Shown here piece after piece: positions 12,566 to 64,000 of a DNA stretch of 64,000 nucleotides. The stretch is taken from NCBI GenBank assembly GCA_951799445.1, contig OX637289.1:7159321-7223320 (forward strand), read 5' to 3'. This DNA is from Pseudisothecium myosuroides (Eukaryota > Streptophyta > Bryopsida > Hypnales > Lembophyllaceae). Under the pieces are notes generated by a model. It ran no database searches, was not told where the DNA came from, and worked only from the letters and a program-made list of their open reading frames with translations. The position numbers and the translations under genes are program-made. The stretch's first letter is position 1; each line of letters begins with the position of its first letter.

Positions 12566-12621
12566 TTATTGTTCGTACTATTAAGACATTATTTTCCACT
12601 AATACAAAAACGATGGTGAGA

Positions 12622-13195: not shown

Positions 13196-16100
13196 TGTTT
13201 CCATGGCGCTTACATTCACGACCACAAAAATTATATCTTTCAATCATTTGTATCTCTAGACTCCACGGTTATAGACCCTTCATCTTGAAACTTGCATCTT
13301 TCCTCGACCTTAAAATACATATTTGGCCACCCTACACTTTTTATGCAGAAAATTTTTGCAAAATATTCTACGGTCATAGGTCCATCATTCATACTAATTT
13401 AAGAATTCCTCCTAAAAAAATCCTAAACTTTCACTTTATTGCCCGTTTCAAGAAATTATCAAACTTTTTGCGTTCTACGCTCGCAACCCTACGCTCACCG
13501 CTCTACGCACGCAAAATAGCATCGTCCGGCATAGCCTATAGTTTCTATGTTGTTCCATATTCTCTTCCAACAATTAAAAAACTAGATAAAAGGATCTTTG
13601 GAATTCAAAAAACAATATGTGGACTACCAAAATGCACTGCAAATGTAATAGCACAACTTCCACATGAATTTTTTGGGCTCCAAGCCTTCTCAATTAAAAA
13701 TGCATATCTACGTTGCATTAGCGAACAACTTCGGAACGCCTTAAATGATCCAGAAAGACTAGGAATAATCTATAAAGGACTCATTCACCATATATTAGCC
13801 AAACATGGAGGTGCAGAAAACATCCCTAGAATCAAACAACAAGATTGTATTAGATCGCCTACAACACAGACTCTATTCCTTCTAAAACATGAAGCGGGCA
13901 TCCATCTCAAAAGCATAAAAGAAAGCTTCCTACTACATACAACACAATTGGAACAAGAATGGATGTCGCAAACTACCCTTCTTTTACCACATATAAATCA
14001 CAAAGTCTCCCTTAAAATGCTACATAAACTCCTCTTACACATCATCTACAAAATAAAACACATTACTCTCCCTAATGGCACAAACTTAATGTCACTAGAT
14101 GACTTCAAAAAATATTATCAAAATCCTTTTAAAATAGAAAAAAATGCTTTACATATAGCAGAACAACTTTTTTGCTATCCACAATGTACACTCGAGTGTT
14201 CAAGCCCTTGCCAAAGACACCCACTCCCAAGAACTCTCAAAGCACAATACATTTCAGACAACCAAAATCTAACCCCAAGGACCTTAGACAATCTTCCACA
14301 CCTACCACCGCCACAACTACCACAACAACAAAATCCACCTCTACATATCCAAAACAACCCACTTAGATTTCCCATACATACTATAACAGACCACAATGCT
14401 AAAGAAATAAAAGACAAATACAAAATTTCAATAAAATACAATACATACCTATGTCAATGGATACTTCAAGATAAGACAACTTATACTAAATGGCTACCAC
14501 AAAGATACCTCTTCCCGTTTAATCAACCAACAGTAATTGCACACAACACCAGTCTACTAACACAATATTACACAGAACAACAATATAAACACTATAGAAG
14601 CATCATCACGATAAACTTTAATCATGAACAGTCTAGAGCTACTAGATTCATCCCACCTCCAACAATAATCCCACTTACGTATATATCCACTACCGAATGC
14701 AACCCAGAAAAAGACATACTAACAAATACACATACCATACTAACACAAAATGAACTAACACAATTATACCTCGATACTAGTAAATACCTTACTACTATCC
14801 CAACCACTAGATTACAATGGTTATGGAATCAATATCACTCTGCCATACATAGCACACATGACCTTGTACCACCTACACAAGCATTTGAAACAGAAATCAT
14901 ATGGCTCTATCAATGATACAAATATAGAAAATCCAATAAAAATCCACTTAGAACATCACAACACACACTTCCACAAAATATATTAGATTCTCTAACAACA
15001 ACATTCAATATTACACATTCATATTTTTCCTCACCAATCACCTGTTCCACACAAATTACACAATTTTACTCTTTATTTGAAAGAGATAAAATATTTGGTT
15101 CACTCGGCAAAGCCTTTGAATACAAATGGAAAGGCATTGGTTTTGCACATCCACACAATGAAGAAACGGCCCACCAAGCACTACACTAGGCAAGACTAGC
15201 AGCCAAACATGATCCAAATACCATAACTATACTAGCCATACCAGACCTAAATTGGTACCAAAACTTCTCCCCATATATCGGACCATTTGAAGACACACAC
15301 GTTATTACCCATTTTGCCGCAGACACTATTACATACGAAGAACCAACAATCCCCCCTGAAATAAACAAAAGACCACGTACTGAACCCCTTGCAATTCACA
15401 TTCTCTGCACACACCACCAAAACCACAATATCGGCCCACCCAACCAAATAGACTCTCTCACAATGATCCTCCAAAATATGCAAATAACACAATATCATAT
15501 ACAAATTGCTGCTCCAACACCTAGTAACGTAATAGTAAATAAAAACTCTAATTGGAATAAACTCACATACAAAACCAACGTCAACCCAGCAAATATACAT
15601 ACGCCCACATTACCAACATACACAAATAATCCCCAATTAAAATTCCCACTACAATATAGCTACTATACTGATGGATCATTCGTACCACCTCAACAACATG
15701 CAGACGACCATTGGATACATGAAAAAGCAGGTTATGGAATATACAATCCCTTCAAAGAAGAAATCCAAATTTCTAAACGACTACCCGGCTTACAAACTAG
15801 TTTTAGAGCCGAGCTCATGGCCATACATAAAACACTACGTATAATCACTACTCAATATCCACATGAACCAGCACACATATTCACTGACTGCCTAAATTGT
15901 CTATATGTACTTAATACACAGCTAAAACATCCTACATTATACCGCAACCATGCAGACAAAACCATATTAGAATCTATGGTAGAAATGCTCCAAAGACAAA
16001 CACAACCTACAACAATTTCCAAAATTAAAGGCCATGTTAATATTAAAGGTAATGAACAAGTAGACAAATTTGCAAAAAATGGCACAACAAAAGAATACAA

Positions 16101-17115
16101 ATTTGCCTCAAAAAAACATGAATTTGCGCACACTACTCCATTCTACTACCAAAAAGACGAATGGCCAGGCCCAGCCCGTCGACCTGACAAAGGCCCGGTT
16201 AGATGCCTCGAAACATATATCACCAAATATGATCGTGATAAAAACTTAGAAATAATGGCACAACGATTTCCTAACATTAGTAAATGGACACTTAATCCTG
16301 ATATAGATAAAGACCTCTCCAATGAATTTTGGTCTAACCCTGAAATAACAGACTCACAGAAAATAAGCTTATTAAAATTCCGCACCGGTCAATACATGGG
16401 AAATGCTAGAAAACAACTATGTTTTGGCATAGAAAGATTTCCATCCATCACATGTCCCATATGTAACTCCCATGACATAGATACATGGCTCCACGTACTC
16501 CTAAAATGTAAACAACACCATATTCACGCCCTTCGAGTCAAAAGACATAATAAAGCAGTATGGGAATTGAGAAAGCTAATCCTATCTACCAAAAACACTA
16601 GATACTATACTCTCATGAATGCAGGAACATTCAACAACAACCCACAAGAAAACACTGTCCCTCCATGGCTGCTACCTTGCTCCTGCGAAAGACAAAGATG
16701 TCATTGCAACGCTAGATTCAAGCCGGATATCCTTTGGGTTAAAGGACTCCCCTACCAAAAAAGTCCACCAATTAATCCAGATAACAATCTCACAATACAA
16801 TTCATAGAATTCACATATACTAATGACAGATTCTCGCAAGAAACAATAGATAATAAAATTCAAAAATACCAATCATTAATAAATAGCATCATGGCCCAAG
16901 GGTGGAATGTAGACCCACTCATTGTCATTATAGCAGGAGCTAGAGAAACAACACATATTCCTTCAATAAAAATCCTTGAAACTAAACTCAAATTACCCGA
17001 AACTGCTTTGAAACACAAATTTAAAGCAATCAACACCATTGCCATACAATATGCTGGTTCAATCATCCTACACAAAAGAAAGATAGAAAATAACCAACCA
17101 CTCCCACCAGAATAA
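13195..17115 (+). pseudogene. LINE polyprotein: RT thumb, RNase H, CCHC, nuclease
   Basis: One reading frame runs through 13195-17115, interrupted only by TGA at 14914 and TAG at 15187. In order: RT thumb/connection (13.4-13.9 kb); a linker of about 400 residues, including a block (TILAIPDLNWYQNF) that I cannot assign; RNase H at about 15.66-16.1 kb with the acidic residues in YYTDGSF, RAELMAIH, IFTDCLN and the KGHVNIKGNEQVDKFAK signature; a CCHC finger (CPICNSHD...WLHVLLKC) near 16.45 kb; and a C-terminal stretch with KPDILWV, IQFIEFTY and a downstream K..KY at 16.7-16.9 kb that resembles the restriction-like PD-(D/E)XK endonuclease of R2-type elements. RNase H would degrade RNA in the cDNA hybrid and the nuclease would nick the target. 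All domain calls rest on motifs read by eye. Confidence 0.75.
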
Positions 17116-22799: not shown

Positions 22800-23380
22800 C
22801 CAGCCAAGCCCTAAAGTAAAGTCTGCTTCCCTTCTCTTCATTTCTTTCTGCGCCGCCATCGCCCCAATTCTCTATTCATGTGCTCTCTCGCCACTTCTTT
22901 GAAGCTCTTTGTGAATTCGATCCCTTTGCCTCCCGCAGATGCTTCTCCACTGCTCTGACATGCATTGTTGTCGTCAGAAGCGCTTTGGTTTTTCTGCACA
23001 CGATTATTTGCTTTGGAAGATCAATGCAACCTTGGCAGGAAGGTCGTGCATTCATCATGGCTAATTAAATTCAGGGTGGGTGCTGGAGTTCTTGTTGCTT
23101 GCGCTGATTGTGAGATTCCATTTGTGACGCATTCATGCTGTTTCGGGACATAGAAGTGTAGCAAACAATTATACGAACGTATGGTTTCAGGGCCTTGAAT
23201 CTGTCGGCATGTGTTTTCATTTGCGTCGTTTGTTTCAGCTTCTTACGTAGTTACTGTAGTTCGATTCATATTGTTTACGGGTTACGAACTGATCAATCGT
23301 GATAGAGTCGGGGGACTTTCGCAAGTCAGAATCTGTAGCACTGGGAACTTTGTGGTGCAGCTTTGGAGGGCATCTCAGAC
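22800..23380 (+). promoter_or_regulatory. Probable 5' leader of the F-box gene
   Basis: The stretch is pyrimidine-rich (CTTCCCTTCTCTTCATTTC at about 22,830) and more GC-rich than the DNA to the left. A possible splice acceptor TGTGGTGCAG lies at 23,351-23,360, just 20 bases before the ATG, so the leader may contain an intron. No TATA box was fixed. Confidence 0.35.
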
Positions 23381-24784
23381 ATGGACATTTCAGGTAGAAA
23401 CAAAACCAAGGTTGGCACTTGTATTAGAGATGAGAAACCAAGCGTTGTTCAAGTGGCATGTGCCTTGAGAGGAATGCTGGATGATGTGATTCAAGGTGTT
23501 GGAGTATCTCCACGCATACGAAATTTACTTGAATATGCAGCACAAAACACATTCATAAAGGGTGTTTCATCTGAAGAGCCTGGCATTGAACGGAAGGTTG
23601 TGAAAACAGCAGAGAGTGCCACCTCTTGTGCCCATTCTTGTGCACATCATGCGAAGTTGATGGACATTGCTCTCTGGAGCGGACTCCCCGAGGAGATGCA
23701 AGAGTTCGTCTTCGCGCGCTTGCCGTGGCCTCAAATCTACCGAGTCCGAATTCTGTCCAAGGGGTGGAACCAGAAGCTGATGAGTGGTGCCAAGGATTCT
23801 CAGTTGAAGCAGGCCTGTGCCAGAGCTCAACCCAAGGCGTTTGCCCTTCTTTCACGGGGACATTGCTCAGGTTTGCTCACAGTAAACGTGTTTGACACTG
23901 CATCTAACAGATGGCATACGTTTGAAATCTCACTGGATAATGATCCCAAGTGTGGTGAAGTCCAAATCAAAGAAGTGTGTGACAGTGATGGAGGGTTGGT
24001 GTGCTTTCTTTGCAAAGTGAAATCCAAGTCCAAGAAGACCCCTCCGATTGTCTTTGTTTGCAACCCTTTAACTCGGGTGTGGAAGCAGCTTCCTCCCCTC
24101 TCTGGCATAGTTCAGCCAAAGATCATGGTGCAACTGATTATGGACCGCGAAACGAAGCGTTACAGAGTGATTGTTGTGGGCTTTTGCAATGACCCCGAAG
24201 TGGGGAATCTGGTCAATGTGTACCATTCAGAGACCGGGCAGTGGACCAAAGCGGATGGCTCCTCTTCTGAAGAAGTGGTTTATGGCTGCTATTACAATTC
24301 AAAATCAGGGAGGTTTGCTGCTCTTTGTTCCTACAATTTTGCAGATGGACTGGTGCATGAGGTTGATACCTGTTTTCCTGGAGAACATGTTCGCAGATCG
24401 GTTCTTGTGAAAGACCGTTTATTTCGTCTGAAGGACATTCATGCAGTTGGGCTCCCGTCGCACTGCATTGAGGAATATCAAGCCGAGAATTGTGGGGCCA
24501 GTTGGCTCCCTTTGAAAGAGTATACCTTTTGCAGTTGGAGTCAACGCTTCCAGCCTTGGGAAATAACGTATTCCACGGAATTTATTGCATGCAAGGATTT
24601 TCTTCTGGTCTTTGTGTCCTCCGAATATGGGGGCCTGAGCCGGAATCGCCGTGAGGTGTATTGTTTGTGGCTTTACGAATTCTCTGGAGAGGAATGGCGT
24701 GAACTTCCAGTGATGCCTGGAGGCAATCGTATGTTTCTTCCCCAGCTGCACATGTGTGACCTTCGTTTCGATTCTGTTCCATGA
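23381..24784 (+). CDS. F-box protein with a kelch-like C-terminal half
   Basis: A single uninterrupted frame of 467 codons from ATG 23381. The F-box lies at about residues 97-140 (LPEEMQEFVFARLPWPQIYR, then RILSKGWN), the SKP1-binding motif of SCF ubiquitin ligases. The first 95 residues are an extension with no domain I recognise. After the F-box come blades of the F-box-associated/kelch type: the FDTASNRWHTF, VCNPLTRVWKQLP and YHSETGQWTK motifs each end a repeat. By family knowledge, such proteins recruit substrates for ubiquitination through the C-terminal half, in cytosol or nucleus. The substrate cannot be told. The gene is intronless in its coding part, like the second F-box gene at 46.6 kb, but the two are not close copies. 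A start further left is possible only as a TTG codon, so I chose the ATG. Confidence 0.9.
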   Translation: MDISGRNKTKVGTCIRDEKPSVVQVACALRGMLDDVIQGVGVSPRIRNLLEYAAQNTFIKGVSSEEPGIERKVVKTAESATSCAHSCAHHAKLMDIALWSGLPEEMQEFVFARLPWPQIYRVRILSKGWNQKLMSGAKDSQLKQACARAQPKAFALLSRGHCSGLLTVNVFDTASNRWHTFEISLDNDPKCGEVQIKEVCDSDGGLVCFLCKVKSKSKKTPPIVFVCNPLTRVWKQLPPLSGIVQPKIMVQLIMDRETKRYRVIVVGFCNDPEVGNLVNVYHSETGQWTKADGSSSEEVVYGCYYNSKSGRFAALCSYNFADGLVHEVDTCFPGEHVRRSVLVKDRLFRLKDIHAVGLPSHCIEEYQAENCGASWLPLKEYTFCSWSQRFQPWEITYSTEFIACKDFLLVFVSSEYGGLSRNRREVYCLWLYEFSGEEWRELPVMPGGNRMFLPQLHMCDLRFDSVP

Positions 24785-39684: not shown

Positions 39685-41814
39685 ATGGCATCGATCCCAA
39701 GATGTTGGTCTCCACCTGAGCACGCCTCTGTGAGCTCCTCGCAGCTCTCTTCTTTGAACTTCAGCAACCTTCCTCGTGTTCAGCAGGTACTCTTCCTCTT
39801 CTCTTGTTTTACCATTCCAGAGCTTTCTTATTAGATAGGTTAGGTCTCCTTGAGATCTGATGTCTTATTAGATGGGTGTCAAAACATGTTACACAATACT
39901 ATTTAACTTCTGTGCAATATTCCCAAAACATTCTTGTGTACTTTAGGAACAATTCTGAATAATCCGAATGCATTCTAATAATATGCTTGTGTGATATCTT
40001 TGTTAGATACCGTCTCAAACATACTAGAGATCGTGTTTGTCTCTCTTCATTCCATCAATTTTTGCTTTTTTCATATTAGTTTGAAAACCTGCCATTTTTA
40101 AAGTAATCCTTTGAAATCACTCTAGGTTCGTGGTAGCCGTGCTCAAAGAAGATTGCAAGTACGATGCTCGATCCAGGAAGAGGAAGTGAAATTGAAGAAG
40201 AACCAGGAGTTGAACCTGCCTCTGCAATCCAAACAAAACGTGGACGAACCTTTGGCGGAGCAGCCCCTGGGGGAGGTCAGTCCTGAGGACGTCAAGGCAA
40301 CGCTAAAAGCTGCAAGGGAGAAGTTTGGCCGAACGACAGTGACAAAAGCGTTGCAGCAAGCGAAGCAGCAGCTGGGGAAGCAAGGAGTGGCCAAGCTGAC
40401 GTTATTTGGTGGGGCTGCAGCTGTGGGGGTCTTCCTCTCCGGAGCTGTACTCTCATCTTTGGAGGTTTTACCAGTCGTCCCTGAGGCCATGCAAGCTGTG
40501 GGACTCGCCTACTCGTTCGTAGTGGCCAGCCGGGTGATTCGAGGAGCTCCTGAGAAATTCAAGGTATCACCCATCCGGGCCGTTCTAGAGATTGTGGAGG
40601 AAGGAGGGAAGATGACCAAGCAGAGAACTAGCTTGGTCATGCCACAGGTAAGGTTATACCACATTTACTCTGTTTACAAAACATATGTACTGTGTATTTT
40701 GTATTCGTACATTGTGTCGTAGCGACATGGCATTGAGACACATGTCTACTCAGGTACCTACACCCAGTTGGAACCCCCGCCTAATTGTGTACATCCCCTC
40801 TTCGTTTCAGAACCTAAATCTAGGATAGTCATTCTTGTCTTATGAGATTTGTCCCACATGAATGAAAGAAGAATGAAAACTCTAGATTTAGGTTCTGAAA
40901 TGAAGATGGGGTATACATTGTGATGCAATAAGGTAGTGGCTGCAGTTACATTTATTTACCTTATTCAGGCTTGGCCTCATTACCTTCATTCTGAGGTTCC
41001 CTTCTGTGTGCAAGCATGTGTTCAGGCGTATTCTGAGTACAAGAGATCATATGTATTTGTACATCATGCTGGATACATGTACTTTCCTTCGATGCAAAGT
41101 CCTGGTTCTTGGCCTTGTACTTCAATATTTCTTGGATATTGTTGTCATCGGATCAGGATGGTGATGAATCAACATTTGACGCCCTAGTACACGTTATTTT
41201 CTTAGGATCTGGACAAGTATACCGCCGCAGCGATGGAGCGCTTAGCTCGGGAGCGTGACAGGGCTGTGAACCAAGTGGCGGAGATGAAACGACGGACAGC
41301 AGAGTACTCTCAAGTTGTGTCCGAGAAAGAAGCCCTTGAAACAGTGGCCTTGCAGCTTGCGGAGGAGAGAGAGACGGCCATGGCGGAGGTCAATACCTTG
41401 AAATCGGCTGTGGAGTCCATGAGTGATAGAATGAAGGGGATAGAAGCCATGCTTGAAAAAGAAGTGGGGCAGCTGAAGTCCCAGAACCAGGCGCTGGAAA
41501 CAGTGGCCTTGCAACTGGCGCAGGAGCGCAAAGTGGCCATGGAGGAGACGGCCAACCTCAAAGCCAGATCAAAGTTTGAGAAACTGGCCCTGGAAGAAGT
41601 GGCCATGCAATTAGCTCAAGAGAGAGATGATGCGCTGGCAGAGATTGACAGCTTGAGGAAGGTGGTGGCTAATATGGGAAGCAGTGCTTCTAGTGACATT
41701 AGAACTCAATGGCAAGATGAACATGTAGAGCCACCTCAACAAGACATCAGTAGCCTCACTGTTTCCCACGTCGTGGATGAGTCCGAGGTGCAGCCACCCA
41801 GTTTCTTTCCCTGA
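39685..41814 (+). CDS. Plastid CAAD/CURT1-like membrane protein with coiled coil
   Basis: Three exons, 39685-39786, 40126-40647 and 41206-41814, all phase 0, give 410 residues. Residues 1-48 are Ser/Arg-rich with no acidic residue after 13, as in chloroplast transit peptides. A CAAD-type domain follows at about 85-190: an amphipathic helix (KATLKAAREKFGRTTVTKAL), then two hydrophobic segments (LTLFGGAAAVGVFLSGAVL and AVGLAYSFVVASRVI) joined by LEVLPVVPE. Family members bind thylakoid or envelope membranes, and CURT1 proteins bend grana margins. Exon 3 is a long coiled coil with three near-identical blocks (LETVALQLAEERE, LETVALQLAQERK, LEEVAMQLAQERD). Typical CURT1 proteins lack such a tail, so this belongs to the larger CAAD proteins with an extra stromal or cytosolic helix. 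The role of this version is inferred only. Confidence 0.82.
40782..40924. repeat. Hairpin (MITE-like) in intron 2 of the CAAD gene
   Basis: TTTCAGAACCTAAATCTAG on the left pairs with CTAGATTTAGGTTCTGAAA on the right, and the flanks continue with GTGTACATCCCC against GGGGTATACATTG. Arms are about 55 bp with a loop of about 30 bp. It probably arrived as a small transposon. Confidence 0.8.
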
Positions 41815-46593: not shown

Positions 46594-47700
46594 TTACAGC
46601 AGGAAACCAGGATTCAACGTTGTGGAGCTTGCAGCCAGCGTCCGGTTCAAATGGTGCCGTTTCTGCACCGACCGCCATGAGCCTCTTGACAAATCATACA
46701 CCAGCGACCTTCCACTACTCGAAGTGAACACAATCGCTCCTTCCGAAGCCACCGCAAGAAAGCTCGGCATCCCTTCACAGTTATTCCAAGTCAAGCATGT
46801 CGGATACAGCAACGAATGCCAAGTCTCCGGCATGCGAGCCACTCGAACAGGCACCTTGGGCGAAGGCAGCACTTTCGATATCGTGATCCCCGATTTCAAA
46901 CAAGTCTCCAGGTCACAGTAGCACCGCATTCTGGAGCCTGCCACAATGTAAACCTCGCCACTACACACCACGAGCTGCACAAAGGAAAGACTCTGCGACA
47001 ATTCAATACCCTTGTTGCTCCACACGTTGTCGAGAAGGCTGTATGTTAGCAAAACGTAACAAGAGCCGTTCCCGAAGACAGTGTAGACCGTGTTGTTGCA
47101 GACCGCAGAGCACACCGGGTCGGGGTTGTCCGGCGGATTCGCAAGCAGAATCCACTTCTCCACCTCCGAGTCGTACATGTGCATGCGCTCCCCGAAGACG
47201 ACGACCTTGTAGGCTTTCGCGGAGTAATCCACCGTCAACATCGGCAGAATGAGATCCATATCTACAATAGGTGGCAACCTCTTCAAGGTTTTGGTCACGG
47301 GGTGGCAGACATAGAGCACTTTCAGATTCGACGTGCGGTATAGTACAAGAAATAACCCGCCGGCTGCATCGACTGTATCTAAAGAGTAATTAGAGGTGCC
47401 ACTAGGGTTTGCTTGTTTTGTGTGGTCTACGAGATAAGTGCTATCAAGGTTGTAGAATCGCTCGTCCGCTAGGTCTAAGACGCACCACCCGGCGTCGCTG
47501 TTGCGGCTCTTGCCCGGGGTGAGGAGCACGTAGAAGCGTTGCCGCGGCGCTAATGCGCAGAGCGTCCCGAACTCCGGGGAGTCGATAAGCGCATTCCATT
47601 GCTTGCAGACGGCGCGGAGGCGGCACACCGACGGGATGGACAGGAATCCGAAAATCCGCATGAGAATGTCTAGCGGTAATTCTCGCGCTGGATTCGCCAT
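46594..47700 (-). CDS. F-box protein, kelch/FBA type
   Basis: A single frame of 368 codons from ATG at 47700. The F-box is at residues 8-45 (LPLDILMRIFGFLSIPSV, then RLRAVCKQWN), placed right at the N-terminus as in most plant F-box proteins. The C-terminal part has kelch-like blades: CHPVTKTLKRLP, MYDSEVEKWILL, TYSLLDNVWSN and VYDLSRGSWRSV each mark a strand ending in W or L. By family role it would link a substrate to SKP1-CUL1 ubiquitin ligase. The coding part has no intron. It points away from the tandem repeat and the 8.9-kb transposon; its promoter must lie within the 1.3 kb before the transposon insertion. The substrate is unknown. Confidence 0.92.
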   Translation of the reverse strand: MANPARELPLDILMRIFGFLSIPSVCRLRAVCKQWNALIDSPEFGTLCALAPRQRFYVLLTPGKSRNSDAGWCVLDLADERFYNLDSTYLVDHTKQANPSGTSNYSLDTVDAAGGLFLVLYRTSNLKVLYVCHPVTKTLKRLPPIVDMDLILPMLTVDYSAKAYKVVVFGERMHMYDSEVEKWILLANPPDNPDPVCSAVCNNTVYTVFGNGSCYVLLTYSLLDNVWSNKGIELSQSLSFVQLVVCSGEVYIVAGSRMRCYCDLETCLKSGITISKVLPSPKVPVRVARMPETWHSLLYPTCLTWNNCEGMPSFLAVASEGAIVFTSSSGRSLVYDLSRGSWRSVQKRHHLNRTLAASSTTLNPGFLL

Positions 47701-48269: not shown

Positions 48270-49034
48270 CAGGGGAGCTGCAGTGGCGAGGGGAGAGATG
48301 ACGGCGTGGAGGGCACTGGCAAGGTGGCTTGGCTGTGAAGACTCTTCAAGACTATCCAAGACCGCTTCCAAGACCCCTCCAAGACCCCTCCAAGACCCCT
48401 TCTAAGATCTCCTTCAAGATTTCTTTCCAAGTCTCTTTCAAATATTTTTTCAAGATTTAACAACACCGTTTTGTTTTATTTTCATTTAAAGAGGACAACC
48501 TTCTTTGTCTACAAATGACATGATCATGTTCACAAGGACCTGTTGAAAGAGGTTAAAATTTCATTGTGTTGGTGAAATAGCATTAGCAAAAAAACTTGTT
48601 GTCAGTGTATTGATGAGATTGTGATGGAACATCATTTTTAAATCACTTTCAAAGAGCTTTTTGATTTTGTATTATAATGGAGGGACTACAATCCCTTGGA
48701 GATCGCTTCAAAATCCTTTAAAGGCCTACCAAATATCCTTTTAAGATTCTTTTAAAGACTTCAGCAAAAGATTTTTTCAAGATTCTTTTAAAAGACTCTC
48801 TGAACCTATGAGACTGTGGTAGAATATCATTTTCAAGTCACTTTCAAAAAGCTTTCAAAACCTATTCAAGATCCTTTCATATGCAATATACCATCAATGA
48901 TTTTGTGTTACAGTACGTAGAAGGATGCAAAGCAATCAATTCAGCATCCTTTCAAAATCCTTTTAGAGATTCAATCAAGATTTTTCCAAGAATCTTTGGA
49001 TTTACAAGCCTGAGGTAGAATATCATTTTCAAGC
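48270..49034. repeat. Tandem repeat block A, 195-bp period
   Basis: The word ATCATTTT(T/C)AA lies at 48,631, 48,826 and 49,022, that is 195 and 196 bp apart, each followed by TCACTTTCAAA-like sequence in the first two units. Within the units, CAAGATTCTTTTAAAGAC-like words repeat. A 12-bp CAAGACCCCTCC repeat lies at 48,355-48,405. The third unit is cut at 49,034 by the transposon and resumes at 57,963. Confidence 0.85.
49027..49034. other. Target-site duplication, left copy
   Basis: TTTCAAGC directly precedes the left end of the 8.9-kb transposon and is repeated exactly at 57,963-57,970 directly after its right end. Confidence 0.8.
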
Positions 49035-49567
49035 CCCGGGGGGGGTCATTTAAAAAAATTTACCTGGCAACGTGCGGCCAAAGATATGGTCTTTTTTATT
49101 CATGGCACCTAAAAATTTGAAATGGAGTCCAAGTAATATATGGTACTACAAATAAGAGAATGAGAATTATAATAAATATAAGGTAATAAGTAATCTGACC
49201 AATTAGATTTTTTTAGATCTAATATACTGTCTAGTATAAATATCCTAAGCTGGGGCTGGGGGTACGATCTGTACCCGTATCTGTATTCCAGTCTGTAATT
49301 AGTGAAGTCATGGTGGATGAAACTTCAACGTCAAGCAATGGAATGAAATCCTCATCATTTTCATTCCCAAGTTCGTCCGTGGGGTCGTCTCTCTCGTCGC
49401 TAGCTAGGGTTTGTTCAGGGTGCGCACACTTCAGCGCAAGCTGTCTTTCATAATCTTTTGTTTCCGTTGCCTTCTGGTTCCTGACTTCGAGGGGATGCTT
49501 ATTCTGAGTTAGGATTTAGGGTAACCCGACAACTAATTTCTTCATTTGAGTTGCAATTTCGGGCGGC

Positions 49568-52500
49568 ATGGCAGATCGGGTAGCGTTGTGGACGTTGGAC
49601 GATGAGGCTTCAGTGCCGCAGCTTTTCGACAAGGTGATGGCGTTGGAGTTTGAAATTTTGGCGCTGTTCAGGGTGCGCCTGGAGATTGATGAGGTGCTGG
49701 ACTGGCCATTTGAGTTTTGGGATGCAGGAGACCAACGCCGCATCCGGAAGAAGGTGGAGCGCCTGAATGTTGTGCAAGGCGATGTGTATGTTATTCAATT
49801 GGGGAATTTTGAATGCGGTTCGGGAAAGCGGCGCCGTGTGGAACATGGGTTTAGGGGCGATGAAGATGTACAACCTCCTGCACACGAAGAGGGGTATCAT
49901 GTATTGGCAGACCCTGCTGTGAATGCCGAAGTCGATCCAATTGGCTCCTCTAGGGTTAGCGGTGTCACTGGCGACCTTGACGACAGTGTTGGGGATGGGG
50001 ATCCATTGAAGTCGACCTTGGTGTCGAAGGAGATCATTCAACAGTACATGGTCAGCGCTGAGAAGTTACGACGGGATTTGAAAGACTGTGACTTCGATGA
50101 CCACAAGTGGGAGCTGCGTTCGTGGGACCAAGACGACGTGGGCGTTGTTAAGCCTCAAGTGTCGGAAGGAAATTGGAGGACAGAGTGGCATTCACAATAA
50201 ATCAACGATGCAAAACTTGTTTTCAAATTTCAGAACAAGTCACCTCCTCAGTACACAACATGTGAAGAGATGGTGTAGGAAACACAATGTTAACTATCTG
50301 AACCATCCTCAATCAGAGGCGCCAAAGGGGAAATCTGTGGTCCTAACAATAGAAGACCATAGGAAATTGATCAAGGAAGGTGTTGAGGTCATGGAGGCGG
50401 TGAATGCAGAACTTGTTGAAGGCGTGAAACCATTCTATACACTTGGAGATTTAGAGCAACCTCGTCCAAAAAGTTTTTGGTTTAAGGTTAAGTGCCCTTA
50501 CTGCCGTAATGGGGTTATGCAGCTATGTCCGCCGAAGAAGAATCTAGACTCTACATTGAAGAACCACATGGCCAGCACAAAGCATGTGCAAGGCATGGAG
50601 GATTCGAAGAATGCAGATAGGAGGGCAGATGCACTTCTTTCGGGGAGAAGGGGAAGGCCACGGACTACATCGGCAGTAAGTGTAGAATCTAATCAACAAG
50701 ATCTTTGGAGGTTCTACAGGAGTGCAAGTGCTCATGGAGAGGAAGGTGAATCTCTTCCTCTAGACAAAAATTCAATAACTGCAATTATGTGCTGGGGATT
50801 TTGGCAAACTCATTGTGCGTATGGAGGTGTCTCATTTCCTGTTAAGTCGTTGCTAGATGATCGGCACGTTGGAGTAATTTGGTATCCAGAACCACATCTT
50901 GTACAATCCATACTGGTGGATGGATCTCAAATTCTCATTGAAGGTACGTTTCGCCACAGAGATTGTCATAGGGTGTCTGCTTCTGTTGACGGATTCCAGG
51001 GTCTCACATGTTCAATGTGTGCTACAATTCCAAACCAGGATGATTTCAGGAAGAGGATTGTTAGGGAAGAAAGCTCCATTGTGAAGAGGGGATCAAGGAC
51101 CAGTGCCGGAGGAATTCGTGTAGGGTACCTCTCTGTCACAGAGCTCACTCGTCACAGTAGGGATGTGGCAAGAAAGTACAGACTAGAAAGGCTGCAGCAC
51201 TCTGTTGCTCGTGCTAGAATCACTAAACTTAAGGTAAAACGTCCTACACTGCTGGAGATGGCTAGAACCTCATCTAATGAAGCTAACGTCGTGAAGTTCT
51301 GTCATAATATATTGAATGCACACAGAACTGGAGCATTTGGTGGTAAACATGCACTTTGGGATTTCCTCCGAGACGTGGCCCAGAACTTGAATTGGGACAG
51401 TAGGGGGAATCGTTATACCGAAAATACGAAATGTTTTGCACAAACCATGAAAGTTTACAGCGGTAGATGAATGTGTGATCTATTTCAACTAAATTTTGTT
51501 GGTCCTAGTTACTGTAGTATAAAAAGGGACATAAAAAAAGGGGTGCAATTCAGACCGGGAGAGCATTAAGAGATTTTTGCTGCTGTAGTAGCCATTTACA
51601 AAGATGCTAAGTCTTCTCTAAATATTGTTGGCCCTGTACCCGTCAGCCTAGCAGAGGATGAGACTAAAGTAAAAGGTAGAGTAGGGTGGGAGTCGAAATG
51701 GGATACTTTGGTGGGTTTCTGTGGTCCTAAGGATGATCATGTATGTGTTACATCTTTCAAGCCTGAGGTAGGGTCTAGAGAAGATGGATACAACAAGATT
51801 CTTGAGACATTCCGATGTAGCCAGATTGGAGGATTCGCTAGAGTCATAGTTGTTAACCCTCTTCATGATAAATTGCCCCGCCTAGTGTTGATTGTATGTT
51901 GTACATGCAATTGTTTTGATGCTAAGTGGGTGAGGCGTCAATGGGACGTCATAGACTCTTTATGGATCAAAGAATGCTTGGAAAGTGTTGGACCTATTGT
52001 TGGGCATTCAAGTGACGGTGATAGTCGCAGGAGGCAGCTTATGTTGCAAGACTACAGGTCGACAGAGGGATCTCGATTGGACTTGGGTTGGGATGGTTGG
52101 CTGTTTACTGCATCTCTGAATTCTAACGGGGATGCCTTTGGTATATATGACCAGGATTATATCCACAATGGAAAGAAATTAATCAATCCTTTGCTGTCTT
52201 CTAAACGCTGCATGCAACTAGGAGGCGATGTTTGTTTGTTGCAACACGTAGGTCATGTTTATAATCGTTTCAATGCTGACGAACATGGTCTTCGACAAGA
52301 ATATGTTGACCGTAAGGACAGGCAAAACTGGGGTTCTGCCCAAAGACTGTGCCAGGAGAAGGTGAGGGCATGTTTGAAGCGATTAAGGGAGGTTGATGAC
52401 GTTCACCGGGAGAGGACTTTGGGGACATAGTACTACTTGCAGATTTGTGCGGATTATATTGACATCTTCTGCTCTCCAAGACACTCTTTGCGGGCTAGGA

Positions 52501-54043
52501 TTGTTCTAGCCGCCAAAGTATCCTTTTTTTCCGCCTATGGAAATTGTGGTTGAAACATGGATATCACGGGGTGCATGGTAATTCCATGGAGATGATAGAA
52601 GGTTGCCACTTTGTTAGTCAACAATGCTTCATAGACATCCAATTGTCTTGTCACTTTGCTGTGTTGCTAATATGTCACTTCTGTGATAGGTATGCTCACT
52701 TACCTGTTCCTTTGCATTTGACTGGAAGCGACTCTTGTGAATTTTTTTTTTCTAAAATAGGGGGCATGAACGGGAATGAGAGGGCTTACAACTTCCACGA
52801 GTTGACCAATACGGCCAATATGTTGAATCATCTGTCTGCTGTTGAGTATGCTGAAAACGGTCTGAAGTTCAATAAGCAGCATAACAGAATGGAAAATGTG
52901 TGGGCCAAGTTACATCCCCTCCAAGAAGGGGAGACGGCCTGTGACCTAGGGGATTATTCAGAAATCCCTACGACTGCTGATGTGGTTCTCGCTCTGAAGG
53001 AGGGACTCACTGAGGCACAACGTCTTCTGAGGCACTTGAACATGGCTCCTTCTGTACATGCAAGGCCCAATTTGAAGGTATGGTTTAATAGACCGTGGGA
53101 ACTGGAGAGGGCAGACGAGAAATTCATGAAGTTCAAGCCATCCTCTGCCCCAATTTCAGGAGAGGACGGCGGTTCGGAAGTGCTACGCCACAGTTTACAA
53201 GTGGCTGGAGGTGAATTGGTGGACAATGGCCACTTAGCCGCATCCCAGGATGTCTTGGAGTCCGAATTGGTGGATGATGGTCAAGATGCTCAAACTGTGG
53301 CTGAAGGGGAGGTAAGGGATGTAATATCGGAAATGTTGAATTCTCATGAAGAACAGATTACATCAGAACCATCCGTGGCTCGAGCTAGTCCTCCCGTGGA
53401 ATATGATGGCCAAATTATTTACAAATCAACCTTGGTGTCTCAACTAAATGGCAACCCATTTCTTTCTAAAGACCGACTTACTAGAGTTAAACATTCTATG
53501 TACTTTAACAACCATGACGACTATGTATCAGCAGCATCGTCTTCAAGTACTTGCCTTCTCGGCATAGGAACAGATTGAGGCGTCTACTTTGTGCAGAGTA
53601 GCAGCGACAAAGTGTCATCCACTGTGAAGTCAGCTCGTAAGAGGAAAAAGGGACGTCAATCAAAGGCCTCGAAGTCAGGGAATGCAACAAATGTTTTGGA
53701 AGGCGTTGATGATGGAACGTGGTGGATAGGACGTGTTCAATCAATAAGGCAGGCGCATGGAAGGCAATGGGAAATTCTCCACCAGCCCTTGGACCTCATG
53801 AATCTTCAGAAAACAACAGGTAAAGAAAGTAATGTCCAATGCAGTCGGCAAGTCTTGTTGCAGTATTTCAGGAAAGTACCCGGTCTAAAAAAATTTAAAT
53901 ATGAACATACCGATACAAGGTGGATTGATGTTGATACCGTCATTACAACTGTTACATTAGAATACAGCAGCAACAACAATGTGTATACTCTAGCCGCTGA
54001 AGACGCAAATGCCTTAAACGAGTTTGTGATGTCTAGAAGTTAA
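49568..54043 (+). pseudogene. Putative DDE transposase of unknown family, decayed
   Basis: Segments: 49568-50200 (N-terminal part, no known domain), about 50,200-52,527 in one frame, then 52,530-54,043 in another. Visible features: a BED-like finger CPYC...H-x5-H (50.49-50.59 kb); an AT-hook GRRGRPRT (50.64 kb); a cysteine pair CSMC; an Asp in LAEDETKV (51,657); an Asp in GHSSDGDSRRR (52,014); a Glu in GSDSCEFFFSKIGG (52,739); and a basic KRKKGR stretch in the C-terminal part. Spacing of the acids is about 119 and 241 residues. D..D..D-x-x-E with a large second gap recalls P-element-type transposases, which carry an insertion domain there. Disruptions: a frameshift or intron near 50,180, TGA 51468, TAA 51567, TAG 52428, a -1 in a T run near 52,530, and TGA 53576. 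The catalytic assignment is inference. Confidence 0.7.
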
Positions 54044-55086
54044 AGCTTATTTATACAGGAAATTTGTCTACCAATCAAAGCTGATTGTACCCTTTAAATT
54101 TAATCGCTTTTTTTTACTAATGCTCTTTGTATTCACCGTGATGAATGTTGATGTTCTGCACATCTTGGTTTACACCTATGCGCCTCTGCAGTGCTCTATT
54201 TATACAACAGGGCAGCAGACAAGCTGAATTTCCTTCATGAAAGACCCGTTTTTTTTTGTTTTTTTTTTCATTTCCAATTTTTTTGGTCACAGCTCTTTGT
54301 ATTGCAAAAAATGCACGTCTTGCAGGATTGGATTCTGCAGTATGTGCAGGCTTGAACTACTGCACTGGCTGAGATTTTGAACCTGTGCTGAATAACAATG
54401 CTTAGATTTTTTAATTTCATTATTAAATTTTTGGGTCGCCCGCTCTATTTCTTTAAAATACTTCTGTCTTTGGACTCTGCCATGTCCTGGTTCAGGTTTG
54501 CCAAGTTGAACTCCTGTAGTAGCGGTTTAGGGTTTTTTTAAATTTCATTTTGTTTTAATACCTATACCTATGCCTGTTTTATTTGAGCGAGAAAAAAAAT
54601 ACGAAACACATACAATGCCATTAACCCTACTGTAATGTAGGATATCCATCCAAGACCTAAACCCTATAAACAGCTATCTATAATAATTGCATCCTTGGAC
54701 TAGAAACAAGGAAAGGGAGGACTACCATTTGTATTATAAGGTGTGCTTTTGAAAATAGTCTTCCCAATTTTAATTTTTCAGGGTGTGGATGTCTTTTCAA
54801 TTCAGCATGACTACGTCCCACAAGTTCCATCATTTTGCATGCTTAGACTGCAGAGGTCTCAATTGGATGGGAGACAGCCCAGGATTATCCGTTTTGGGGA
54901 GGCGGCTTGGATGGGATGTTTTATTCATCAAGGATCCTGGGATCCTTGGCCAAAATCTGGGGAATCATTTTCCCTACTTCAGGCTTCATCATCAGCGCTG
55001 CCAGTCAGATCACTACTGTTCCCTAGCCCTGCTTAAATTGTTTTTTTGTGGGTTTTCCTTGTAAATCACTTGCTTCCTAGAACCCT
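54044..55086. other. Transposon interior, unassigned
   Basis: 54,044-54,740 is AT-rich without genes. At 54,780-55,070 two overlapping frames of about 95 codons look protein-like but I cannot identify them; they may be the first part of the cargo sequence that follows. Confidence 0.35.
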
Positions 55087-55275
55087 CGTCGCCCTTCCTA
55101 TCTGTTGCTCGTGTTCTCGCAGGGATCGCCCAGCTATTGCTCGCTTTGTCGCAAAGATCGCCCTTTTGTTGCTCGTTTTCTCGTAGACGTCGCCCATTTG
55201 CTCTTAGTTTTCTCGCAAAGAATCGCCCGGCTGTTGTTAGTTTTCTCGCAGCCAATCGCCCGTTGAGTTTGATCG
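55087..55275. repeat. 32-33-bp tandem repeat, six units
   Basis: The word TCGCCC stands at 55,089, 55,126, 55,158, 55,190, 55,223 and 55,256; the last four intervals are 32, 32, 33 and 33 bp. Each unit reads roughly CGCAAAGATCGCCC then a GTTGCTCGTTTTCT-like part. It lies just before the ATG of a small open frame (55,281). Confidence 0.9.
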
Positions 55276-55280
55276 GCGCA

Positions 55281-55574
55281 ATGTCGGACCAATTTGCCGC
55301 AAGCACTGTGGCGGAAATCTGGGCGGACGATGTTGCCGCAAGAGGCGCGTGCGATATCGAGAATGCAGCAGCCCAAGTTGGAGCGATCGTGGGAGACCTT
55401 GCGTTCGTCTTCTTAGCCCCATCTTTGTTTTTCTTGTCTTGGATTTTCTCTTGCACGGTCTTCCAATGCTGTTTCGTCATTGTTTCTGGCGGGCGCGTCT
55501 ATTTTGTTTCTGTCTTTGCCGTCTTTGCGGATATGCGCCAGATCGGTCGGGCTCAATTGCTGGCGGGAAATTGA
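55281..55574 (+). other. Small open frame with a hydrophobic segment
   Basis: An open frame of 97 codons starting at ATG 55281 (MSDQFAASTVAEIWADD) with a hydrophobic run (FVFLAPSLFFLSWIFSCTVF) near residue 50. It starts directly after the 32-bp repeat array. I do not recognise it. It may be an exon of the cargo gene whose later part lies at 55,670-56,164, or chance. Confidence 0.35.
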
Positions 55575-55669
55575 GAGTCCTTCGGATGTTGTTCTGCTGC
55601 AGGGCATGGAAGTGCTTGGTCGTCAACCTGAACCCACAAACCTGGGAGTGTACCGCTTAGTGGGAAGGG

Positions 55670-56164
55670 GTGGCAGCTCAAGTTTTGTTGCCCGCAATTC
55701 TGAGTATTGCACGTGGCACTAGGGGGACTGGATGGGCTTTCCACAATGTTGGTGTGCAGGATCGGGCTAAAGGGTTGCGCCTAATCGCAAAGCTCAGTTT
55801 GGTGAGCAAATTTTGGCGTGGCATTGTTTCCAGCTGGGTTGAGTATGCTGCGCTGAAGCTGGCGCAATTCGACTTGGTGTGGGTGTGGCGCGCGCCCTGG
55901 AAGTCTCGGGATTCGTACGTGGTAGAGTGCTTTGACGATGCCATGTCCATATTTTCTTTCACATGGAAGCTGTAGAAGCCAATCCCGGACCGATTCCGCC
56001 TTCTTCCGATGAGCGAGTTGTCGGGGGCTGAGTTGTCTCTCCTGCGCACAGAACTGGGGCGGGGTTGGCAGGAACGAGGTGCTGTCCCGACTAGAGCAGA
56101 CTGGCGTGACTTCCCGCTGCTGTGGGTCACTCCTTGGCAACGCACCCCCGGATCAGCCATGTAG
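55670..56164 (+). pseudogene. Captured gene fragment, function unknown
   Basis: One frame runs 55670-56164, broken only by TAG at 55973. The first part (LRLIAKLSLVSKFWRGIVSSW, then VEYAALKLAQFDLVWVWRA) loosely resembles the region after an F-box, where a helix with a conserved W follows; the end (RADWRDFPLLWVTPWQ) continues the same composition. It is GC-richer than the transposase gene and the flanking transposon DNA, as expected if it was picked up from a host gene. I cannot name the parent gene. Confidence 0.45.
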
Positions 56165-57130
56165 GTTTGAAGGCATGCTTTGGTCCAGTTTTTGTTTCAT
56201 TTCTTTAGTTCTTCTTGTACATATATGGTGACCCTAAACCTGCATCATAGTATTGCTTTACATAGAGCAGCCCTAGAACAGCATTTTCGTAATTAGTGAT
56301 TCAGACATTCACAGAGGGGTGACTGCTTTTGACATTCAGTGTTCTTCACAGTCACGAAGCTTTCTTTTTGTTTTAAATGTGTTTGTGAACACATTGTATG
56401 ATAGAAGCATGCTGAATTTCATCAGCATTTTGCAAGATTTTGTATGACCAGCAGTAGTGTGTGCCATTTGCCCTTGAATGTTCCCTTTTCTAGTCAAATT
56501 GCACGAAATTCTGTCATGCTTGGTGTTTGTTTTCTGGCTCCACGAATCTGTCCAGCCGCTCCTTCGGTGTGTTGTAGAATGTGGTGGGTACAATCGTGCA
56601 ATGCTGGCTTTCTTGCTTTCTTTTGTTTGGACGTTATCTGTTTGTAGGCTAGGAATGTTTACAAATGTTTCAGCATTCCTTGTTAAATTATGTGCATGCA
56701 TTGTTAGTTTTCTTGCCATTAGCTTCTGTTCTGAATGGAATGTGAATCCCTTTCAGTTCGAGCACTAGCAATTCCTCTTGAACTTCTCATTTAGTTTTTT
56801 CTTTTGAGCTTGTCATATGATGGGAGCTGTGGGAGTTTTAGGAGCTGCTTAAAGCTGATCGTTTCTGCTGTAAAATGATGGGTGTTGCATACGCTTGAAG
56901 CATAAACCCTGAAGAATGAAGGAGCTGAAGAAAAACTAGCTAATCGTTTTTGGTCTGGCATTTTCGGTGTTGCATATGCTTGAATCCTAACCTTGAAGAA
57001 TTAAGGAACTCAAAGAGAGCTGCATGTCTAATGCTCTTTCCAACGTGCATGTTATGAATTAGGCTTTCATTTGAACGTGCATGTTATGAATTATGCTTTC
57101 AGTGTATGTCTCCAATTTCCAACGTGCATG
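56165..57130. other. Transposon interior with short direct repeats
   Basis: No gene. GGTGTTGCATAYGCTTGAA occurs at 56,881 and about 56,968, each followed by a diverged CTGAAGAAT...AAGGA stretch. Three units headed AACGTGCATGTTA follow at about 57,041, 57,076 and 57,121; the third is split by the nested TTAA element. Confidence 0.55.
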
Positions 57131-57703
57131 TTAACCCCTAAACGTCTGGATTCATCTCCAAAATTGACGATTTGAGAAAAAACATTATAAACTATAATTT
57201 TGAAGAATATTTTGGAATTGGTATACAAATGAAAGCTGTAGATTTTGATTTTTAAATTCTATCCATACGGTTAGATCTACTACTGCTATCACCAATCTTT
57301 TTCTATAAATTTTGAAAAGAAAATTTCAGAATTCCTTCTAAATTCAATTACAAGTAAAATATTATCATTTTTTGAGTAAAACTTGTTGGAATGGATGTGA
57401 AATAAGGTTCTCTTCATATGGTGATTTTTTGAAATTTTTGTGACCTTTACATCTTTGACCTCATTTTTGCACATCTAGTTTTGAACTAAAGTCAATGCAA
57501 ATTGACCACTTGATATACTTCCACATTTGTAATTTTAGAAATGTATTCTAGTAACACCAAATCCAACCGATGGATAGGACAACAACTTAATAAAGTATCA
57601 CCAAAAATTAGGATTACTTTCATCCAAGCAAGAATGAGACAGAAACAAGGATCTGAATCTGTTCACCGTCCAAAAAATGGACGTTGGAGCGCTCTAGGGT
57701 TAA
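57131..57703. mobile_element. TTAA-flanked element nested in the transposon
   Basis: It begins TTAA-CCCCTAAACGTCTGGA and ends TCTAGGG-TTAA. It splits a tandem unit: AACGTGCATGTTA on its left is followed, after removal, by AGAATTATGCTTTCAGTGTA on its right, which matches the intact neighbour AACGTGCATGTTATGAATTATGC. One TTAA is thus the target. The interior has no transposase. Terminus and target match the element at 29,176. Confidence 0.85.
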
Positions 57704-57962
57704 GAATTATGCTTTCAGTGTATGTCTTGAGTTAAGTTCAAAATGTAATTCAAAATTGTGAATTCAAAATAAAATAGGGTATGATAAATTAGCCTCTTAT
57801 ACCAATTTAAAGTAAGTATATGGTATTCAAAAATAGGCCAAATTAGAAAATTAGGTAATGATATGGTCTCTTTAATTGGTCCCCACTTTCAAAATACCCC
57901 CATTAATAATACCCCGCGGTCACACGTGATATGTAAACTACTTGAAGAGTGACCCCCCCGTG

Positions 57963-57970
57963 TTTCAAGC
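57963..57970. other. Target-site duplication, right copy
   Basis: TTTCAAGC, identical to 49,027-49,034, directly follows the GTG end of the 8.9-kb transposon. Confidence 0.8.
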
Positions 57971-58570
57971 TGCTTTCAAAAGTCTACAATAGCAATAAGA
58001 GAGATGATAGCGAAGAAGGCACAAATAAAGTAACTTAGTTGTGAAGATTCCTAGGGTCCATGAGACTTCAAGATCTTTTAAGATCACAACAAGAGTCCTT
58101 CCAAAATTCCTTTCAAGGACTATTTTAAAGATTCTTTAAAGATTTTTTCGAGGCTCAATGTCTCCATTTTTCCATAGAAAGAAGACAATTTTTTCTTTAA
58201 CAGATGACAAAAGAATATTTGGACAGACCCGCTAAATGGTGCAAGAGGCCAAATCTTACAATGCTAGCAAAAAAACATTGTTTTATGTACCCATGAGATT
58301 GTGGTTCATTTTGGAGTCATTTTCAAAATCCTCTCAAAAACCAATTCTAGACCTTTTCAAAATAATTTCATGTTTTTTTAATTAGTGATTTTGTTTTAAA
58401 ATAGAAGGACCCAAAGCAATTAATTCAAGAGTTTTCCAATTCTTAAGATCCCTTCAAAATCCTTTCAAGACTCCATCAAAGATTCTTTCAACATTATTTG
58501 AAGACTCTTTAAACGTACAAATGTAATTGTAGTGGAACATCAATTTCAAATCACTTTTAATATTACCAAC
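57971..58570. repeat. Tandem repeat block B, continuation of block A
   Basis: After the transposon the repeat resumes. AGAGAGATGATAGCG and TTGTGAAGATTCCTAGGG correspond to GGAGAGATGACGGCG and CTGTGAAGACTCTTCAAG in block A at about 48,292 and 48,337, followed by the same CAAGATTCTTT-type words and by the ATGAGATTGTGG...TCATTTTCAAA unit. Block B is therefore a second, more diverged copy of a larger unit of about 770 bp. Confidence 0.75.
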
Positions 58571-58742
58571 ACCGTAAACATAATACAACTAGGAGTTCTT
58601 CAAGACAAAATCAAATTTTAAATTTCAAGAAAGAGTACAAGAGTGTATTTAGAGCAAGAAGCTAAAAGTGCAAGAGACGTATTGTTGAGACTAAGGTGTT
58701 GTCAAGACTGACTAGGGATTACCTCAACCTTGACATTTTTAT

Positions 58743-61465: not shown

Positions 61466-64000
61466 TCATTCATCCATCTCCGCTTGCATCTCTTGGAGGG
61501 TATTCAGGATTCCTATAGACCAGAGAATCACACAATGTATGTTAGCCAGACTGAAATGGAAATGGAAATCAAAACATTTACAGAAGATTCAAAAGCAAAG
61601 TACGATCCTCCAACTGCTTACCCTGAAAATCCGGGTCAAACATCACAGCTGCAGGAAGGTCGGGCGCTGCCCCATGGCCAGGGAAGAACTGCTGTAATTC
61701 CTCCGGGGGTAGAGTTGCTGTTGAATCCGAGAAGTCAGACACACGCAGATGCTTGTATCTGTACAGACCCACCATGTACACATATACTGTTAGTTTGACT
61801 AAAACATTTGCAGAGACTTTGAGAAGGGCATCGATATTGAAGATTTGTCAAAAAGAAAACCCGCGCTCTCGAAGACAAAAGTGACAGTGCATATGGCATC
61901 AAATAGGTTGAACAGGAGGACTTCGATTTTTGTTCTTAGAGGAGTTCTAAATGACGATTTATAGAATCTAAGGAGGTGATCTATTATCTAGACTGTAGTT
62001 GATCTTCTCCTCTTCGCTCCGATTATAACACTCTCGGGTGGTGTCAATGTCAAAGAAAGACGAACCCAAAAACTCTGAAGATATATGTTAAAACTATCAT
62101 CAAATCAGATTGAACAGTAAAGCACTTACTCATTTTCGTCTCCAGGAAAAGTCTCCTTCAGCACGCAGGCCCACTTGGCAATTTCCGTTTCACCATTTCC
62201 TGTTATTGCCTCGTCAGCAATGCCAATCACAGCTTGGGCGCCCTCCTTCAGCCATGTTTGAACATCAGGAGCTCTCCAAACTAAATAGTTCCTAGCTACG
62301 TATATGTTTGTAAGGTGCTCAAGAGTAGGGCTTTCTGAAGTGGCTCTGCTAAAGTGGTGGTGCTTCAGAATCTTCGCCCAGGCAGCATCCTCTTTAATGG
62401 GCGCTTTATCCACTATCTTATTCAGAAATGCAGGATGCAGCATCAATGCCTGTTGCAGTAGCTTCATCGACGACTCCTCTTGTCCAAGTGAAACTTCGGG
62501 TGACTTGGGTAGTGATGCTTTGCCGCCCGATTTACTAATACATAGCCAAGATAAATCTCAGAGATGGGACGTAACTAATTGAAATATCAAAGAAACTGGT
62601 TCTTAATTTCTGCTCAAGTTATGCTACCATTAAAAGACATTAAAAACAGCTGAAATCTGTTGCGTAAGCCCAAGCGATCAGCATTCAGCAAAGTGAATAT
62701 TATCCTATTACGCACGCCAAGACTCTGGATGGCATATATAGTACTTCTAGACATGAAGTTGATATGTGAATACAACACTTGGAACACTCGACTCTCATCC
62801 GGACCTATATTTCTGCTCAGTACAGAAAATATTAATAAAGGAAACGAACAGACGGAATACCATTCACAAGACCCTGGTACTAAGAATGCATCAAGAAGAA
62901 TCCGTACTTTAAAATACACAAAAACTCTTCAATATATACACATAACTTGGAGCTCTGAAAGTACCTGGCAGAGCTAGGAGCAGACCCCTGGTCTTCAATA
63001 TGAAATTGGGCAAGTGCGAGTGAGAAGGAAAAACTGGGCAGCAGCGAAAGCGGTCGATCTGTCCCATACTTTCGTACAAACGTCGTCAACCACTGGTATT
63101 GCTCTGCCCTAATCGCAAAATAATCAATACAAAACAATGACCCCATGGGATCATCTGAGTCCAACGAGAACAAAACTTTACAAACTTCGAATGCTGCCCG
63201 GTGGCATCCTCGCCTATGTAAGTGCTGCATGTGCTTGAATAAAGCAACAAATAGTGGCTTGTTTGGATCCCATTCAAAGTCCAACCTACATCTTCCAGTT
63301 GTAATATTGAACGAAGGGTGCCACGCACATTCCAAGGCATAGAGACATCTCTCTAAAAGGTCAGCTGATATTTGACTTTCACCCATATGCCTGTACATTT
63401 CCGCCAGAGTCAAAAGAGAGTCGATATGATAGGGATGATGGTTAACCATAGTGACTATGGTATTTGGGTCATGCGAAGCTGAACATTCCTCGTATCTCTT
63501 CTGTAATTCCTGATATGAGCTTGAGAATGTGTATCTGCCGAGACAAACATCTGTATTAGGATGAGGTCGGATATATAAGATTGCGTAAAGTGCGCAGCCA
63601 ACAAAGGCTGGACTAAGTTCAACTCGAGAACAAGACAACGAAGCATGTTCATCAATTTCAGAACGCATTGGAGGACTTGATTTCATCAATACGGTCATGC
63701 TCGACTAGATTCATTGTCGATAGACAGAAGAATTCGTGCTCATCCAGAAAGAACATAACCGCAGATATTTTATCATCTAACTTAGTGAGTTCCAAGTCAG
63801 AGATTCATAGGAAGTGAAATGTATAAAAAGAGGTCACACACCTGAAAAATTTAATGCCCTCTTTCGTCTCAACGAGTTCCATGGATAGTCCACCTTCAGG
63901 TCGAGGCCAATCATCATGTGGCATAACCAACATGCTCTTTTTCAATGAAACTCGACCTCCTCTATGAGAAACCTGACGCTTCCTACTACCCACCATCCCA
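61466..64000 (-). CDS. TCF25/NULP1 family protein, C-terminal part
   Basis: Five exons are visible on the minus strand: from beyond 64000 to 63842, 63534-62965, 62534-62130, 61758-61622 and 61512-61466, with all junctions in phase and a TGA at 61466-61468; about 438 residues are in the window. Family signatures: WPRPEGGLSMELVETKEG, then HHPYHIDSLLTLAEMYRHMG, LLERCLYALECAWHP, LHRRGCHRAAFEVCKVLFSL, ILKHHHF with LEHLTNIYVARNYLVW, and YKHLRVSDFSDSTATLPPEE. TCF25 (Rqc1 in yeast) acts with Listerin in ribosome-associated quality control, shaping ubiquitin chains on stalled nascent chains; it was first described as a nuclear repressor-like protein. The N-terminus lies outside the window. Exon 2 joins exon 1 through a split Arg codon (KFF-R-YTF), which restores the family sequence. 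Confidence 0.93.

Follow-up and report, generated by a model that had tools for sequence, protein, structure and literature searches.

The Drosophila P element is a classic transposon, and the mechanism and features of the P and THAP9 transposases are described in passages of PMC7776569 and PMC10983969, where the P transposase is called unique among transposases and integrases in its use of guanosine triphosphate (GTP). The P element is 2.9 kb long with 31-bp terminal inverted repeats (TIRs), makes 8-bp target-site duplications (TSDs), has a terminal G on the transferred strand and encodes a protein with an N-terminal THAP domain and an aspartate-aspartate-glutamate (DDE) core, in which a split ribonuclease H (RNase H) domain, a large helical insertion and a helix-turn-helix are combined. 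GTP dependence and cleavage with a 17-nt stagger mark the P superfamily. Zebrafish THAP9/Pdre2 has, by its published description, a short TIR starting with C (13 bp in Pdre2) and an 8-bp TSD; it is an animal system, and THAP9 proteins are named after the THAP domain. The Transib/RAG1 and hAT (Hermes) enzymes carry an insertion domain at the same place in RNase H. For land plants, the table of a review (PMC9033089) gives six TIR superfamilies (Tc1-Mariner, hAT, Sola, MuDR, PIF-Harbinger and CACTA), P not being among them in that table. Here we describe a transposon of 8,928 bp, seen in a single copy at 49035..57962 of a 64,000-bp stretch (the window) of contig OX637289.1 from Pseudisothecium myosuroides. 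Very likely it is a cut-and-paste DNA transposon, inactivated in this copy, with a transposase distantly related to those of the P element and THAP9; it would belong to a deep branch of the P type that is apparently undescribed. Its 8-bp duplication and terminal G, and the fold predicted for a relative, are those of the P element, and its short TIR starting with C resembles that of Pdre2. Unlike Drosophila P it is 8.9 kb long, with TIRs of 10-14 bp, no THAP match, an intronless frame, finger motifs and an extra C-terminal domain. Its parts are as follows.

49027..49034, no strand: left TSD TTTCAAGC
49035..57962, no strand: whole element, 8,928 bp
49035..49048, plus strand: left TIR CCCGGGGGGGGTCA
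49568..54043, plus strand: broken transposase gene, a single frame of about 1,490 codons without introns, split over two frames by frameshifts (tblastn of long relatives)
50130..50170, plus strand: frameshift (near 50153) at the first cysteine/histidine finger, where relatives have extra residues
50493..50585, plus strand: zinc-finger-like motif C-x2-C...H-x5-H, the second finger (translation and alignment, by eye)
50646..50660, plus strand: RRGRP motif, kept in most long relatives seen (alignment)
51468..51470, plus strand: in-frame stop TGA
51567..51569, plus strand: in-frame stop TAA
51657..51659, plus strand: predicted first catalytic aspartate (AEDET), kept in all 65 covering proteins of 84 aligned
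52014..52016, plus strand: predicted second catalytic aspartate (SDGDSRRR), kept in 67 of 69 covering proteins of the 84
52152..52331, plus strand: segment of the inserted domain, putatively contacting GTP (QDYIHNGKK ... DRQNW)
52428..52430, plus strand: in-frame stop TAG
52520..52532, plus strand: frameshift at a T run (near 52523)
52739..52741, plus strand: predicted catalytic glutamate (GSDSCEFFFS), kept in 57 of 58 covering proteins of the 84
53576..53578, plus strand: in-frame stop TGA
53579..54043, plus strand: C-terminal, mostly-beta domain (GRVQS...), conserved in relatives
54044..57949, no strand: 3.9-kb 3' part
55102-55261: 32-bp tandem repeats in the 3' part
57950..57962, minus strand: right TIR CACGGGGGGGTCA
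57963..57970, no strand: right TSD TTTCAAGC

The left end reads CCCGGGGGGGGTCATTT from 49035, the right end up to 57962, taken as reverse complement, reads CACGGGGGGGTCACTC, and TTTCAAGC abuts the element outside both borders at 49027-49034 and 57963-57970. The G-rich inverted ends and exact flanking duplication reported by an earlier reading of the sequence alone (the sequence-only reading) were thereby confirmed; the inverted repeat is weaker than it had stated, with 10 identical bases, or 13-14 when one mismatch and one indel in the G run are allowed. The 8-bp TSD and TIRs of the P superfamily are therefore present in this one copy. Taken singly, each border feature is modest and its occurrence by chance is not negligible. 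TTTCAAGC is found 6 times in the window against 4.95 expected, and CNCGGGGGGGTCA with up to two mismatches 3 times against 1.51 expected (exactly at the right end, with one mismatch at the left end and with two at 40267-40279), at least 3 such sites occurring in 23 of 100 shuffles. When 40-mers of the window were paired at random, 96 of 20,000 pairs matched as well as the two ends do. The identity of a random pair of flank 8-mers has a probability of p=1.7e-4 with 1-kb flanks and 4.7e-4 with 300-bp flanks, a match likelier than in random DNA because TTTCAA recurs in the flanks. These figures, the short homopolymer-based inverted repeat and the off-centre position of the gene, with 3.9 kb of unidentified DNA on its 3' side, speak for a rival view, in which the border features are a coincidence of a region rich in TTTCAA and runs of G, and the gene is part of an element with different ends. 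Only one copy having been seen, the ends could also be those of another element that surrounds the gene, which counts against our interpretation. Yet the two features fall together at each of the two borders, enclose the gene and show the TSD length expected of this kind of enzyme, and their meeting at adjoining positions around a transposase gene is well beyond chance. Together with the flanking repeat considered below, this makes chance borders very improbable. As had been claimed, the element is a DNA transposon flanked by a duplication of 8 bp, and its borders are very probably exact to the base.

The left flank contains diverged repeat units 195-196 bp apart (48613/48808, 195 bp; 48811/49007, 196 bp). 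When the flanks are joined they align to the unit through the junction, extending the 48811/49007 match to a score of 53, compared with 44 for the left flank alone and 20 for the right; none of 500 shuffles of the right flank equalled this, the best reaching 51. Of the 195-bp tandem repeat that was said to be rejoined in register by removal of the element, the alignment across the junction stands, but Tandem Repeats Finder (longest period 500) gave no 195-bp array and the further unit in the right flank is out of register. The support given by the repeat is real but partial. Degenerate TTTCAA-rich repeats extend over 48300-49034 and 57971-58700, beside an F-box gene on the opposite strand.

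Within the borders, predicted proteins of 1,475-1,530 amino acids (P0003, P0011, P0139, P0140 and P0149) align from 49568-49709 to about 54040, and their tblastn alignments to the window gene have no intron-sized gap. Candidate introns at 51463-51570, about 50160 and about 53540 were rejected: tblastn runs through 51468-51569 and 53576, with the stops inside. Because the alignments of long relatives pass straight through, the gaps are lesions and not introns. There are six lesions in the frame, four stops and two frameshifts. A sequencing error could account for the frameshift at the T run, but less easily for the four stops. The codons of all three catalytic acids are intact. As sequenced, this copy cannot encode a full transposase. 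The element is hence complete, as had been claimed, in its borders but not in its function. In the 3' part no recognised coding sequence was found. Its stretch at 55013-56160 is rich in guanine plus cytosine (GC; 52% GC at 55-56 kb), carries the 32-bp repeats, is without a recognised domain and may be captured host DNA.

To which enzymes the gene belongs is indicated mainly by structure. The modelled core of a relative matches the P-element transposase very clearly, over 412 aligned residues of a 456-residue chain, the matched predicted fold being that of a DDE transposase whose RNase H is split and which has a large helical insertion and a helix-turn-helix. The prediction thus contains the P-type RNase H and the inserted domain that binds GTP in P, GTP binding here being putative. 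The aspartate-to-glutamate spacing of 242 is close to the 245 of a published figure for zebrafish THAP9. P-like working is suggested by this modelled fold and by the length of the duplication. At the sequence level PF21787 matches P0062 at 7.7e-13, two of 29 proteins of set A1 at E<=0.1 and one of 14 of set A3 at E<=1; PF21788 matches P0149 weakly (0.13), and the window open reading frame (ORF) matches PF12017 at E 0.056, which falls short of the cut-off of that model. Several observations weigh against a P relation. P0062 is a jumbled gene model, and PDB searches with the sequence profiles of A1 and A3 do not retrieve the structure of P. No THAP match was obtained at E<=0.5 in P0139, P0140 and P0149 or at E<=10 in five window ORFs. 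The phenylalanine preceding D444 of P is not kept, and the distance between the two aspartates is 119 here, whereas P has 73 and zebrafish THAP9 has 87. Moreover, residues were paired with those of P by topology and spacing, not by residue-level superposition. As there is no profile link to P in the PDB, the relation rests on the fold and on a few, mostly weak, Pfam matches.

In place of THAP, two C-x2-C...H...H motifs, the second altered in some proteins, and an RGRP motif were seen by eye in the long relatives; the RRGRP motif of the window gene is AT-hook-like. Pfam gave no match for the second finger at 50493..50585. The C-terminal 154 amino acids have a mostly-beta predicted fold with no convincing match in the PDB. 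A PTM/DIR17-like Tudor domain (residues 1066-1119, 9.7e-10), possibly an addition that reads chromatin, forms the end of P0055, a distant relative. The missing THAP, the missing PDB profile link and the unmatched C-terminal domain would also suit a separate superfamily that shares the P fold by deep common ancestry, with other DNA-binding parts and C-terminus and a sequence beyond profile detection; we think this rather unlikely. Three things keep us from assigning the element formally to P: THAP is lacking, the link by sequence is weak and the tree described below includes no P sequences. The sequence-only reading had placed the gene outside CACTA, MULE, PIF, Tc1/mariner, piggyBac and KDZ. 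For CACTA this agrees with Pfam: Transposase_21 was not found in five ORFs of the gene region (E<=10) or nine ORFs of the 3' part (E<=1), and the CACTA ORF of the window itself, as positive control, matches it at 8.8e-44.

Two homologue searches returned 81 proteins, with an 850-amino-acid translation built on a wrong splice as query, and 174 proteins (120 listed). Among the matches listed are proteins of the liverworts Riccia sorocarpa and Calypogeia fissa and of the animals Amphiura filiformis, Mytilus edulis, M. galloprovincialis, Desmophyllum pertusum, Nymphon striatum and Frankliniella fusca. They are 24-51% identical to the window gene per aligned piece, and their records are hypothetical, uncharacterized or unnamed. 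Three Frankliniella fusca proteins (P0081, P0083 and P0084) match the family profile under unrelated names (30S ribosomal protein S4E and others), likely a wrong annotation. No confirmed relative came from bacterial, archaeal or viral collections. A core tree was built from the window and 91 of 172 proteins, those dropped, Nymphon included, not spanning the core; its root is arbitrary. The window groups with P0001, P0002 and P0007 (99/95), within a group of 22 rows (95/95) that also contains two Riccia proteins and the Calypogeia protein, with Riccia P0076 just outside. The second large group, itself weakly supported (83/69), takes in Amphiura, Mytilus and Desmophyllum, and Frankliniella sits on a very long branch.

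Tentatively, we entertain an unrecognised superfamily-level branch of P-type, probably GTP-dependent transposons across land plants (liverworts and the host of the window) and several animal phyla; its ends would be recognised by zinc fingers and not by THAP, and its transposase would carry a new domain at the C-terminus. We find it quite unlikely that the superfamily already has a catalogue entry under a different name, for example Novosib or a Repbase plant or algal P family, even though Novosib shares the duplication length of 8 bp and P is placed in plants or algae by some classification tables. The Repbase classification table, as given in PMC4455052, has both P and Novosib, and a 2014 report (PMC3985635) describes distant homologues of P from non-animal hosts, namely Polysphondylium (Amoebozoa) and Aureococcus (Chromalveolata). 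Against a catalogued identity stand the core of the scanned members, which no Pfam model covers well, and the land-plant table without P; an unpublished or differently named Repbase entry is possible. The undescribed element family proposed from the sequence alone therefore survives as an apparently undescribed deep branch, but of a known kind, the P superfamily, which had not been considered. If the wider branch were real, P-type transposition would be ancient in eukaryotes and THAP a later animal addition. Such a widespread relative, whose long predicted proteins are unbroken (one comes from a liverwort), makes it possible to ask whether GTP use is ancestral, where in the enzyme the ends are recognised and when THAP was added, and it would also aid the annotation of proteins now hypothetical or misnamed.

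In an intact member of the P-type branch, the transposase would bind the ends through its helix-turn-helix and N-terminal finger motifs, and two metal ions held by the DDE residues in the split RNase H domain would serve to cut them. The helical domain inserted before the catalytic helix would bind a nucleotide, probably GTP, that positions the terminal G of the transferred strand. Joining of the excised element to a target cut 8 bp apart would yield TTTCAAGC twice. The present copy would have inserted into the degenerate repeat of about 195 bp and decayed later, and its mobility today would need an enzyme from another copy and ends that still work.

Elsewhere in the window, pieces of a CACTA-type transposase lie at 4889-6382 (plus strand), the second ORF giving the Transposase_21 match used above as control. 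Three long ORFs of 453, 594 and 641 amino acids, stop to stop, at 11204-17115 (plus strand) possibly form another unusual element: GC skew falls to -0.55, the first ORF ends in a SWIM-like cysteine/histidine pattern seen by eye, and the last matches RNase H (PF00075, 3.1e-13), with no reverse transcriptase match in the three ORFs scanned. Host genes, which together with the liverwort relatives of the transposase point to a probable land-plant host, are found at 46594-47700 (minus strand, F-box), 23363-24784 (plus strand, kelch/F-box), 40153-40722 (plus strand, CAAD-like) and 62880-63698 (minus strand, TCF25); the plant-type CAAD, KIB1-4 and At3g26010-like matches lie below their Pfam cut-offs, and those to F-box and TCF25 above theirs.
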